Origin: Selenomonas sp. F0473
GTDB taxonomy: Bacteria > Bacillota > Negativicutes > Selenomonadales > Selenomonadaceae
DNA: 64,000 nt
Direction of reading: 5' to 3'
Assembly: GCF_000315545.1 (NCBI RefSeq)
Contig: NZ_JH992902.1
Coordinates: forward strand, 1,796,638-1,860,637
The translations under genes were made by a program, and so were the position numbers. The notes beneath the pieces are model-generated. The model saw only the letters and a list, made by a program, of their open reading frames with translations, ran no database searches and was not told where the DNA came from. Below, in pieces: positions 22,129-27,065 of this stretch (positions within the stretch are counted from its first letter, which is position 1; each line of letters opens with the position of its first letter).

Positions 22129-22202
22129 TGCAAAGAAAAAAGTGAACATAATTCATAAAAGTGAGTAATAACGAATCTAATTATAAAAGTTTCATAAAGA
22201 TA

Positions 22203-22278
22203 TAGACAATCATTCTCATAAGTCGTATAATTTGAAATAGATTTTCATTTATCTTCAACAGAATGAGAATCATCCATT
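22203..22278 (+). promoter_or_regulatory. Fur-box promoter of the TonB receptor gene
   Basis: TAGACA (22203-22208) and TATAAT (22226-22231) are spaced by 17 bases. Between them lies TAGACAATCATTCTCATAA (22203-22221); its complement TGAGAATGATTGTCT matches the 7-1-7 Fur pattern at 11 of 14 informative positions. A weaker half-box, AATGAGAATCATCCATT, follows near 22263-22278. Iron repression through Fur is inferred from this and from the gene type. Confidence 0.7.
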
Positions 22279-22309: not shown

Positions 22310-25300
22310 ATGAATAAAAGGACACAGAAGCGGATGCGCCGCCTGCTCTCCTGCGCCGTAGGCGCGTGGCTTGCCGCGCCCGTCTGTACCGCATGGGCGG
22401 ACGACGCCGACATCCGGGTAGAGGCCGACTCCGCGAAGGAGAATGCGAAGTACGAATCCCAGTCGACGACCATCATCACGGCCGAGGACATCGCGAAGAA
22501 ACAGGCCAAATCCGTCGAAGGCATCATCTTCGACGAGACGGGCATGACGCGCACCGTCGACGCGATGGGACGCGTCGGCCTCTCCATCCGCGGCGCAGAG
22601 CCGCGCCATACGCTCATCCTCGTCGACGGCCGGCCCGTCATGGGGGATTTTGCCAAATACACGGGGCAGGGCGACGAGCTCCAGCGCCTCGGCACGGAGA
22701 ACGTCGCGCGCATCGAAATCATCCGCGGCGCGGCGAGCGCGAAGTACGGCGCGGACGCCATCGGCGGCGTCGTCAACGTCATCACGAAGGAGGCATCGAA
22801 GACCGCGGGCCTGTAGGTAAACCTTGAGGGGTGGCGCGCACGGGGCGACGGCGACCTCTTCCCGTTCGCCAACGGCTTTTTGCGCGCGGACAGCGGGCAG
22901 ATAGGCAAGTTCCGGTTCGATATCTACGGCGGCAAGCGCGACATCATGCCCGCCTACAGCAAGAACACTTTCGGCGGCGTCCTGCACGGCGGAACGAGCG
23001 ACGGCACGCGCGTGCGCAACTCCCTGCGCTACTACGGCGACATCAAGGACATCGGCTTTACCGCCGCCTACGACATCAACGCGAACCATGGGCTGACGCT
23101 CGGGCTCGACCATATCGCCGAGGATATGCAGCGATTTGTTAAGCATTCCAACTCGGATATGGAAGACCGCCAACAGTTCAAGCGCACCGTCACCCGCGAC
23201 ACCTACCGCATGACGTATACGGGGCGCGGCGGCGCGAGCGACTGGCAGGTCGACCTCGACTATGCGAAGATGCGCGGAGACGACATCACGTTGGTCTCGA
23301 ACCGTGCTCACTCGAAGTATGAGGGCAAGAACCGGCTCGACTATATCGACGATATCCTACATTCCCAGTGGAGCATTAAGGCGTCCGCGAATACACAGAT
23401 AAATAACGACCATCTCCTCACCTACGGATTCGGATATAGCAAGGAGACGGGCGAGGGCAGCCGACTCAAGAATGCCCCGCAGACCTATATGCGTGCCATC
23501 AATCCGTGGGACTATGACAAGAACCTCTTCACACAGGATGGTTCGAGTGATAAACCACCGCTCTCCCGCGTGCACGACTATACGCTCAACTACGACGAGA
23601 ACGGCATTCCTCAATATGACTACGACTACGAAATGTATGGGCTGCGCGACGCGAACGGCAGAACGCTCAAACCGATATACGACTATAAAGACTACCTCGA
23701 AAACGTCCGGAACGATTACCTCAGACCCGACGCTCCGCCCGACGTGAGGGCGCGCCACCACGCCTTTGCCGAGGAACTGAGAAACGACCCGAACAACGCT
23801 TGGATAAGACCGGGCAACCTATCGGACGATATGTATTTGTGGCTTTATTATAACAGAGTCATAGACGAAGACGACCCTACGCATCGGATTACCTACAAGG
23901 GGCGGATGTTTGGAGAAGAATATTATCTCCGGCAGAATAAGCAAACCGTCGGCAAAGCGGAGATCAAGAAAGAATATCTCTTCGTGCAGGATACATGGTA
24001 GCTCGGCCGCGATACCATCCTCGCGCCCATCCTGCGGCTCGACCACAGCAGCCTCTTCGGTACGAACATGACCTTTAACATCGGCATGACGCACAACATC
24101 GGCGGCAAATCGAACCGCCGGTTCAAGGCGAATCTCGGCACGGGCTACACGGAGCCGGGCATGGGCGAGCTTTACTACAACTGGGAGATGTACGCGGGAC
24201 ATCCCGTAGACAGCGGCGTCGCGCGCATGGGCTATTACTTCATCGGCAATAAGTATCTAAAACCTGAGAAGTCCGTGAACATCGACATCGGCTACGAGAT
24301 GGAAGAGGGGCGGACGGCCATCCGCGTCAGCGCGTTCCACAACCGCATTCGTAACTATATGACGACCTTCTTCACAGGGCGCCTGCTGGACTTCTTCCCC
24401 GCCAACACAGATGAGGAGAAGTCGCTCAAATGGCTGCTCCCGCCCGATATGATATACAGTTTCAAGAATATCGGGCGCGCGGAGATTACGGGGCTAGAGG
24501 CGGAGGTGGACCGCAGGTTCGACAGCCACTGGTCGGGGAAACTCGGCTATACCCTCCTCCATGCGATCAACAAGAGCGACACGCTGATGCCGCGCCGCCT
24601 GCTCGACCGCCCGCAGCATAAGCTTGACATCGGTATTTCCTATGAGAACAGGGGCTGGCGCGCCTCGCTTTGGGGGAGCTACTACATCAAGATGCTCGAC
24701 AGCAACACTGTTGCGAATAACGGCAACTACCTCACCTACGACGAACACGACAACATCAAATATAACTTTGCCGAGGGCGGCAAGCAGACCTATGAGACAA
24801 AGACGTTCGGCATTTGGAACCTCATGGTGCAAAAAGACCTCGGCAAGGGGTCAAGCGCATATGTCGGCATCGACAACATCCTGAATCACCGCGACGACGA
24901 CCGCGCTCTCCAGCAGCGCGTTTACCGCATCGGCGTGAACCTTACCTTCGGCCCCGACGCGGATACCGAGATACGCGCGAAGACCGCCGAAGAAAAACCG
25001 TGGACGCTGCCGAAGGACCGGTGGTTCATCGTAAAGCCTTTTGAAACAGAGAAGGAACGCGGCGTGCGCGTCATCGGAGACTACCGCGCACGGTGGAACG
25101 TGTTCACGGGCAAAATCAAGCCGTCCGAGGCGCGCGTCACGAGGCAGGCGCAGGTCGGCACGGCGTATAAGAACTACCTCGAGAAGGCGGAGCACGGATT
25201 CGAGCAGCGCCTGCGCGCGGGGGTAGACGCGCGCATTGGCAACAATACGAATGTCCGTGTGCTTGGCGGCGCCGCAGGGAATGCGGGCGTCGATACCGAG

Positions 25301-27065
25301 GTGGACGCATCGAAGAACCACGGCCTCTCCCGCGCGCGGATCGACGAAGCGGACGTCACCCAGCACGTAGGAAAATGGGACCTCTCCCTCGGACGCCTCA
25401 CCGAGCCGATGGGCGTCACAGGCTACTACTTCGGCAAGGAGTACGACGGCGCGCGCGCCGTCTGGACGGGCCGGGCGACGCAGGTGCGGCTCGGCTATAC
25501 GGCACGTTCCGCCACAGTACGGGCATCCATGACTCGGCATATACGCACGCGACGCGGCAGGCCTTCCTGCGCGCCCCGACGAAGTATGAATGGCTGGGCG
25601 TTGCCGATGGGGGCGAGCTTTATCCTGTCCCGGGGTACGACGGCCTCTACCAGCGCATGCTGAAGGCAGCGACGCCCGAGGAAAAGGATGCCGTTCTAAA
25701 GAGCTATCTCGACCTCATCAAGGAGCTGCCGCAGAAGGACGGCTCGGATAAAAAGGTCAAAGAAATGCGTGCGGACCAAGATCTCCAATCGTATCTCTGG
25801 AGAAAGACGACCTATACGGACATTCACGGCAACGTTCTGGGAACATATATCGAGCAGATTACGTTCAGACCGAAGACGGACATCGAGTCATTCCTCAATC
25901 CCGAGAAACGGCGGCAAAAATTTGAAGATGCGTGGAGAACGCGTGTAGAGCGGTATACGCCCGGGGACATTCGTACATCGCAGGAAGAATTGGAGCTGCC
26001 GGGGCACCCGAAGCAGATGGTGAATGCGACGACGGAGTTCATCTCGGGCAGATACATCGGCGACCAAGGATTCGGCCCCCAAGGGGAGCTCTGGTATGCC
26101 CGTCCCTATGACCCGAGCGAGTTCGCCCCCATCGCGCGGGACGAGGCAAAGGAGCTGTCCTACCGCAGCCTGACCGACCCCGCGCTGTCTTGGACTGATG
26201 GATTTATGTACGGGGACATCGATTTCCACTATTATAATGACGGACAGAGCGCGGCCTTGGCATGCTGCAGGAACAGATCGCACGTTTTACGCTTCCTCAA
26301 TCATGGGAGCCGGAGAGCGACAGAAAGCTGCCGCTGCATCTATTGGAGAAACTCGGGGTCCTCATGCCGTACACCGGCACTGCGCTTCTACAGGACCGCA
26401 TTCCCGCGCTTGATAAGGCGCTGTTCGTACAGGCGCGGCACGAGGTCGCGCCGCAGCTCGGCATCACCGCGTTCTACCTGCGCTCCGTCGGCGACCGGAC
26501 ACATACGATGGAGGCCGCGCACGACGAGGGCGATGTGAAGAGCAACGACGTGCATCGCTTTAACCGGCTTGCAAACGTCGTCGGCATCGGCGCCGCATGG
26601 CATCCGGGGCGTAACCTGCGTGTCTCCGCGGACTGGGGACGCAACATCACCGCATTCGGGCGATTCATGAACGGCGAGACCGTCTACGAGCATACGCCGG
26701 ACAGCTCCGAATTCGTCTTTAAGGGACGGCGCATAGGCAGCAATCCCATGTTCTGGACGCTGCGGTTCGACGTCGGCGAGAGCGATACCAACCGCCCCGG
26801 CAGCTGGAACGCCTTCCTCGACTATAAGTACTTCGAGCACGGCTCCTTCTTCGGCGGCAACGGCACCGAGAGCGTCCCCGACCGCTACATGGACGGCATA
26901 CGGAGCTTCACCCTCGGCGCGGGCTACGTCCCGATGGAAAACCTCCTCGTCGAAGCGTTCTACACCTTCGACGCCCGCGGCATCGGCAAACGCGACACAC
27001 TCTACGGCGCAGAGAAGTTTAAGCTGGGAGACTATTTCCGGATGCAGGTGACGTACAAGTTCTGA
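22310..27065 (+). pseudogene. TonB-dependent receptor fused to a second porin-like barrel, degraded
   Basis: About 1,585 codons of outer-membrane receptor. A signal peptide precedes WADDADIRVEA; the plug follows (GLSIRGAEPRHTLILVDGRP near residue 93, SAKYGADAIGGVVNVIT near 142). The receptor barrel appears to end near 24950 (RIGVNLTFG), and a second, porin-like barrel (GDYRARWNVFTG onward) ends FRMQVTYKF, a typical outer-membrane terminal Phe. The frame is broken four times: TAG at 22814, TAG at 23999 (both in frame, sequence resumes as VNLEGW and LGRDTILAP), a 2-base gain near 25496-25499 (TATA for TA), and a shift near 26244-26250. Transcribed under Fur control but probably not made full-length. 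Confidence 0.85.

Follow-up and report, generated by a model that had tools for sequence, protein, structure and literature searches.

TonB-dependent receptors of the Cir/FepA/PirA type are built from a plug and a beta-barrel domain. The SLH-porin OmpM1 of the Negativicutes is described as forming trimers of 16-stranded porin barrels, with an SLH stalk that lies in the periplasm (PMC10628300), and HmbR and HpuAB of Neisseria are described as phase-variable haemoglobin receptors with poly-G tracts (PMC3786947). Here we analyzed a gene at positions 22310-27065 of a stretch of 64,000 nucleotides from Selenomonas sp. F0473 (assembly GCF_000315545.1, contig NZ_JH992902.1, positions 1,796,638 to 1,860,637 of the forward strand), which we refer to as the window. 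In this gene, a TonB receptor is joined to a second, OmpM-like part, and the reading frame is broken by two in-frame TAG codons and two frameshifts. We consider it highly probable that the gene was inactivated recently and belongs to a Negativicutes family whose members combine a TonB receptor, a short linker and an OmpM-type barrel that lacks the peptidoglycan-anchoring SLH domain and carries a large variable insert.

The family shares the plug and beta-barrel domains with Cir/FepA/PirA-type receptors but differs from them by the joined second domain (609-775 residues in 24 relatives) and by a helical insert in the receptor barrel. With OmpM of Veillonella parvula (VpOmpM1, PDB 8bys/8bym/8byt) it has the barrel fold and C-terminal sequence in common, whereas the SLH domain is missing, a TonB receptor stands in its place and an insert of 209-322 residues has been added. 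The pattern of poly-G tracts is like that of HmbR and HpuAB as described in PMC3786947. However, the Neisseria receptors belong to another phylum and are not fused to a porin, and in the Negativicutes family the tract lies where the signal peptide ends, and switching is predicted from the frames. Among the papers listed by literature searches, no title or beginning of an abstract showed a TonB receptor-OmpM fusion or poly-G switching in Negativicutes. The family, which combines such a fusion with an apparent poly-G switch, is little described.

Pieces and lesions of the window copy

The ATG at 22310 opens a single frame that is interrupted by in-frame TAG codons at 22814-22816 and 23999-24001. 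Alignment to relatives stays in the same frame past both codons without a change in length, as a sequence-only reading of this DNA had claimed. That reading had also regarded both sites as natural glutamine positions. Among 24 relatives with long frames, the first column (read by eye, as was the second) contains Gln in 12, Ser in 6, Glu and Arg in 2 each, and Ala and Lys in 1 each, while the second contains Gln in 20 and Met in 4; the description is therefore fair for the first site and better for the second.

In a BLAST comparison with one long-frame relative, window positions 22313-22813, 22817-23998 and 24002-25498 fall into one frame, 25498-26172 into a second and 26256-27062 into a third. 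The first frameshift lies at about 25498, in agreement with the 25496-25499 proposed earlier, and the second lies somewhere in 26172-26256, an interval that includes the previously proposed 26244-26250. The TonB part closes with RIGVNLTFG at 24952, and the second part ends with a phenylalanine codon at 27060-27062 followed by TGA at 27063, both as originally read. Aligning the pieces to intact homologues, which had been suggested as a check, showed that they match the relatives in order and far above chance: pieces 1, 2, 3 and 5 in 24 of 24 each, and piece 4 in 19 of 24. Plug and barrel domains were both recognized by Pfam in the window (Table 1) as well as in the relative L014, although piece 2 scanned alone had no Pfam match. 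A scan of the window for Rfam families and tRNAs returned none.

A family of fused genes in the Negativicutes

The genome of F0473 contains two further long frames of the family, of 1633 and 1595 codons, and of the 14 genomes of the genus, 12 (F0473 among them) have fused relatives. Across the class, where scoring covered the two or three top candidates in each genome, strong matches to the second domain (E <1e-50) occurred in 42 of 380 genomes, mostly in joined frames. The remaining 37 of the 79 matching genomes had weak matches only, mostly in frames of about 400-530 codons. When 299 genomes of the phylum were searched with one second domain, three matched, all of them in the class and one with only a weak match of OmpM type.

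The sequence-only reading had named homologues that are consistently two genes, split at 24950, as the result that would speak against a fusion. No such pair was present among the matches listed. The strong ones sit in joined frames or, where the frame is short, in copies that are broken, gapped or located at a contig end, apart from one of 103 codons (G648) that falls outside this classification; no free-standing gene was seen among them, and a free-standing strong relative of the second domain is unlikely. On the basis of these two or three top candidates per genome, we rejected an origin as two separate genes. As judged from these matches, the arrangement is a conserved fusion across Negativicutes and not two neighbouring genes run together at the window locus. 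The unusual architecture was thus rightly spotted in the earlier reading; rather than being peculiar to this locus, it defines the family.

Two observations concern individual members. The 1595-codon paralogue (L010:5857-10551) and L055, a member from another species, are 95.8% identical at the DNA level over almost exactly the gene, while their aligned flanks are 72-83% identical; this likeness probably reflects recent horizontal exchange or conversion. In addition, several TonB receptors are clustered at G000:C1:1196844-1212110 in the F0473 genome (G000), including two shortened frames (393 and 521 codons), which are possibly further broken or switched copies.

Two halves with different predicted barrels

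The model of the first half of one relative shows a plug and 22 strands according to DSSP (our own count, in which four strands of 4-5 residues were left out), with the helical insert located within the receptor barrel. Its structural matches included PirA, Cir and Fiu, which scored Z 18.8-19.8 alongside many comparable rows, and sequence comparison placed Cir and ferric enterobactin receptors nearest among solved chains. Matches to the haemoglobin and siderophore subfamilies of NCBIfam remained far under the cut-offs. The ligand of intact members is most likely an iron chelate or heme.

In standard Pfam, the second half has hardly any match apart from Porin_5 near its cut-off, and a second-domain profile run against PDB sequences gave chance-level matches only. 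The link to OmpM is drawn from fold comparison and from matches in whole genomes. The second half of one relative (678 residues) was modelled from an alignment of eight rows. Foldseek listed OmpM1 of V. parvula in its first four rows, and VIA-align 2 superimposed the model on OmpM1 (8bys_A) with Z 27.0 and a root mean square deviation (rmsd) of 2.7 over 288 of 323 residues, compared to Z 21.2 for the next protein. In hhalign, the match to three OmpM-type genes reached a probability of 97% over 124 C-terminal columns, and one of the free relatives of OmpM type, L075, is a clear OmpM (8bys, E 1.7e-66). Three of the four free relatives that we read share the same SLH-type N-terminus (confirmed by Pfam in L075), and the fourth is masked there. 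In contrast, no SLH domain was detected at E up to 1 in any of four fused second domains or in the one first half scanned. Because this domain is missing, we call the second half OmpM-like rather than OmpM.

The insert divides the porin barrel and has a mean identity of 22-26%, versus 51% and 57% in the two half-barrels. DSSP places eight strands ahead of it and ten main strands behind it. If the two flanking strands are counted as the stem of the insert, the model would correspond to a 16-stranded barrel with the insert facing outwards, which fits the variability of the insert; 18 strands taken literally would place it in the periplasm. The strand count of 18 instead of 16 weighs against the proposed structure, and so does the low mean confidence of both half models, with predicted local distance difference test (pLDDT) values of 53 for the first half and 57 for the second. 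In the second, ten-residue means go up to 88 in the strands, while those in the insert are about 29-57.

This low confidence also leaves some room for a different explanation, in which the second half contributes extra strands or loops to one very large TonB-receptor barrel. We regard this as very unlikely, since the first half by itself already models as a plug with 22 strands, the second half by itself aligns to the OmpM1 barrel as described above, and its sequence is related to free OmpM porins. The earlier proposal that one chain makes two barrels is thus borne out for the homology of both halves, whereas two barrels side by side in the membrane are a prediction.

Probable recent inactivation of the window copy

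For a comparison of conservation, near-identical rows were removed, so that 20 of the 24 long-frame relatives were kept. The window copy breaks 4 of 261 otherwise invariant family columns. Of the 20 intact members, 18 break 0-8 of these columns, whereas the two others, which are diverged, break 25 and 30. The branch of the window copy (length 0.352) is not long and falls within the range of the sister clade. The gene carries two TAG codons and two shifts, compared to 24 relatives that stay open for at least 1500 codons. As four lesions are accompanied by few broken invariant columns and no long branch, the most fitting interpretation of the copy is a recent pseudogene, with recent inactivation as the simplest account; this is in line with the decay considered in the earlier reading. 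A transcript may still form, but translation should end after the plug domain and give no receptor.

Some observations argue in the other direction. Over most of the gene (five of six regions), the window copy has a slightly lower identity to L017 than L011 and L012 have, such as 55% versus 60-61% in piece 2 and 30% versus 39-41% in piece 4, while in piece 1 its identity is higher. Window piece 4 is 18-32% identical to eight relatives, compared to 41% between L011 and L017 in the same region. This hints at a possible relaxation of constraint in the window copy. Moreover, the lesions are known from one assembly, and an assembly error is possible at some of the four sites.

If all stops and shifts were sequencing or assembly errors, the gene would be functional, and the otherwise well-preserved protein sequence would be accounted for as well. 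We consider this quite unlikely. The genome was assembled into a single contig (2.07 Mb, 99.94% completeness), two of the four lesions are substitutions and neither frameshift lies at a long homopolymer. No other window gene was found to be cut into consecutive frames, according to a rough and incomplete list based on GC content at third codon positions that missed piece 4 itself. In addition, stops or frameshifts interrupt the bodies of nine other members (L015, L016, L019, L021, L053, L111, L112, L118 and L119) at various sites, for which draft errors are possible. These nine members, broken at other places, give the family a birth-and-death look. The pseudogene itself is ordinary in kind, whereas the family is not.

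Tolerated readthrough, the other possibility raised by the sequence-only reading, would require that TAG is read as an amino acid and that the shifts are programmed. Frame and length are indeed maintained across both TAG codons, and L015 and L118 also have in-frame TAG codons. However, the gene is additionally cut by two frameshifts, the nine other broken members are all free of lesions at the TAG sites (the long-frame relatives being stop-free by selection), and TAG serves as an ordinary stop, closing 4 of 42 coding-like frames selected from the window. We therefore consider readthrough barely credible and retain recent inactivation as the explanation.

Poly-G tracts at the end of the signal peptide

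In the 1633-codon sister gene of the same genome (L009), the signal peptide is encoded in another frame than the receptor, and the frame changes at a run of 11 G (Table 1). Of 72 distinct family genes, 14 carry tracts of G7-G13 where the signal peptide ends; duplicates (L144, L066, L067) and identical anchors were excluded from these counts. By our own reading, eight of the 14 are in frame and six out of frame. L116, which begins at a contig edge, was left out of the frame judgement, L015 was judged from eight residues before the tract, and the frames of L014, L017, L115 and L137 at the junction were read by eye. Four of the out-of-frame genes (L009, L018, L055 and L109) have stop-to-stop frames that stay open over 1556-1659 codons and are for this reason unlike decayed genes. 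A single body lesion is present in each of the remaining two, L015 and L019, and also in the in-frame L016. A pair of paralogues in one genome, with 91% DNA identity, illustrates both states: L110 is in frame with G8, and L109 is out of frame with G10. Tracts of exactly G6, which are not among the 14, are in frame in L020 and L061 and out of frame in L118 and L119. L123 has two G7 tracts, both within the signal peptide.

Runs of at least G8 were counted 11 times in 2,848 junction bases versus 0 times in 329,570 body bases of the 72 genes, and runs of at least G7 14 times versus 3 times. In the tree, the tracts are spread over several separate clades. Of 76 runs of at least G9 in the 14 genomes of the genus, 15 lie within 200 nucleotides upstream of a plug domain on the same strand, compared to 0.05 expected. 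This is a lower bound, as 160 of 211 plug domains were entered. Genome sizes were rounded in this comparison, and the 15 tracts are mutually dependent, six of them sharing a spacing of 128 nucleotides. Four of the 15 belong to fused genes, and in the F0473 genome the count was 3 of 6.

A slippable repeat, combined with in-frame and out-of-frame copies with open bodies, is thus present in the relatives but not in the window gene, and the family looks phase-variable as far as the frames of the tract genes indicate; reversible switching by slippage would be the prediction. A poly-G tract was looked for at the junction in piece 1 and none is present, so that a poly-G switch was rejected for the window gene. 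Without a tract and with four ordinary lesions, the window copy should therefore yield no full-length receptor.

Alternatively, the tracts could be length errors of the assemblies, and the out-of-frame copies could be functional or decayed instead of switchable. Homopolymer lengths are error-prone, the data consist of one assembly per species and show no strain with more than one tract length, and of the eight copies out of frame at G6 or longer, L015, L019, L118 and L119 have broken bodies, which fits decay. On the other hand, the concentration of tracts at junctions and upstream of plug domains shows that the tracts themselves are no error, and the other four out-of-frame genes have open bodies. 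We hold this alternative to be unlikely.

Tracts were also observed outside the fused genes of F0473. Two non-fused TonB receptors have a G9 tract in or just behind the signal peptide (G000:C1:1204389-1204397 and 1258275-1258283, both on the minus strand), in frame by our own reading. The tract-to-plug spacing of 128 nucleotides, as at the first of these, recurs in six genomes of the genus, F0473 included. Three more tracts (G13, G10 and G9) lie away from plug domains at G000:C1:1375471, 1523309 and 1770917.

Proposed function and implications

Intact members would most likely import an iron chelate or heme through the receptor half, with the porin half as a proposed oligomerizing platform. 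The porin insert, probably in an outward-facing loop, may offer a ligand-capturing or antigenically variable surface. In many members, slippage at the poly-G tract would turn the gene on and off. Taken to its full extent, this leads to two-barrel proteins with a 22-strand receptor and a 16-strand porin, whose trimers display three receptors and three hypervariable surface domains under poly-G switching, and to the window copy as a dead end of a birth-and-death repertoire. For this complete picture, we judge the chances to be even.

If one chain forms two complete barrels of different kinds, as predicted, it would be a test of how the outer-membrane assembly machinery deals with such proteins and of the ways in which active and passive import can be coupled. 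If poly-G switching indeed operates in diderm Firmicutes, including mouth bacteria, a strategy of mucosal pathogens such as Neisseria would be extended to a further phylum, and the broken look of some of these genes in single genomes would be accounted for. This also serves as a warning that annotation from single assemblies may label switched-off receptors as pseudogenes.

Feature coordinates and Fur-like sites

Table 1 Features of the fused gene in the window, its upstream region and the tract of its sister gene
Feature	Position	Strand	Evidence or remark
Fur-box-like site	22199-22217	+	15/19 matches to the consensus
Second Fur-box-like site	22259-22277	+	12/19 matches to the consensus
Piece 1: signal peptide and TonB plug, closed by TAG 22814-22816	22310-22816	+	Plug PF07715, E 7.8e-22
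Piece 2: first part of TonB-receptor barrel, closed by TAG 23999-24001	22817-24001	+	Alignment to relatives, BLAST
Piece 3a: remainder of TonB-receptor barrel, last residues RIGVNLTFG	24002-24952	+	TonB_dep_Rec_b-barrel PF00593, E 9.1e-31
Piece 3b: linker and start of OmpM-like porin barrel, to first frameshift	24953-25498	+	Alignment of relatives, BLAST
Piece 4, other frame: end of first half-barrel and hypervariable insert	25498-26172	+	31-39% identity, six best BLAST rows
Piece 5, third frame: second half of OmpM-like barrel, terminal Phe, TGA	26256-27065	+	Porin_5 20 bits vs cut-off 22, BLAST
Poly-G, 11 G, between signal peptide and receptor of 1633-codon sister	G000:C1:1050977-1050987 = L144:1478-1488 = L009:4978-4988		Out of frame in assembly

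The sequence-only reading had placed the gene under Fur control. The two Fur-like sites upstream of the gene, together with the kinship of its receptor, lend modest support to a link with iron and Fur, and the window gene may accordingly be a candidate for this regulation. Two results speak against it: the best Fur-like matches upstream of the relatives are uneven (10-15 of 19), and no iron-uptake operon was recognized beside the gene among neighbours that were only glanced at. In a scan of the plus strand of the window with the Fur-box consensus, the site at 22199 was the sole one with at least 15 of 19 matches.

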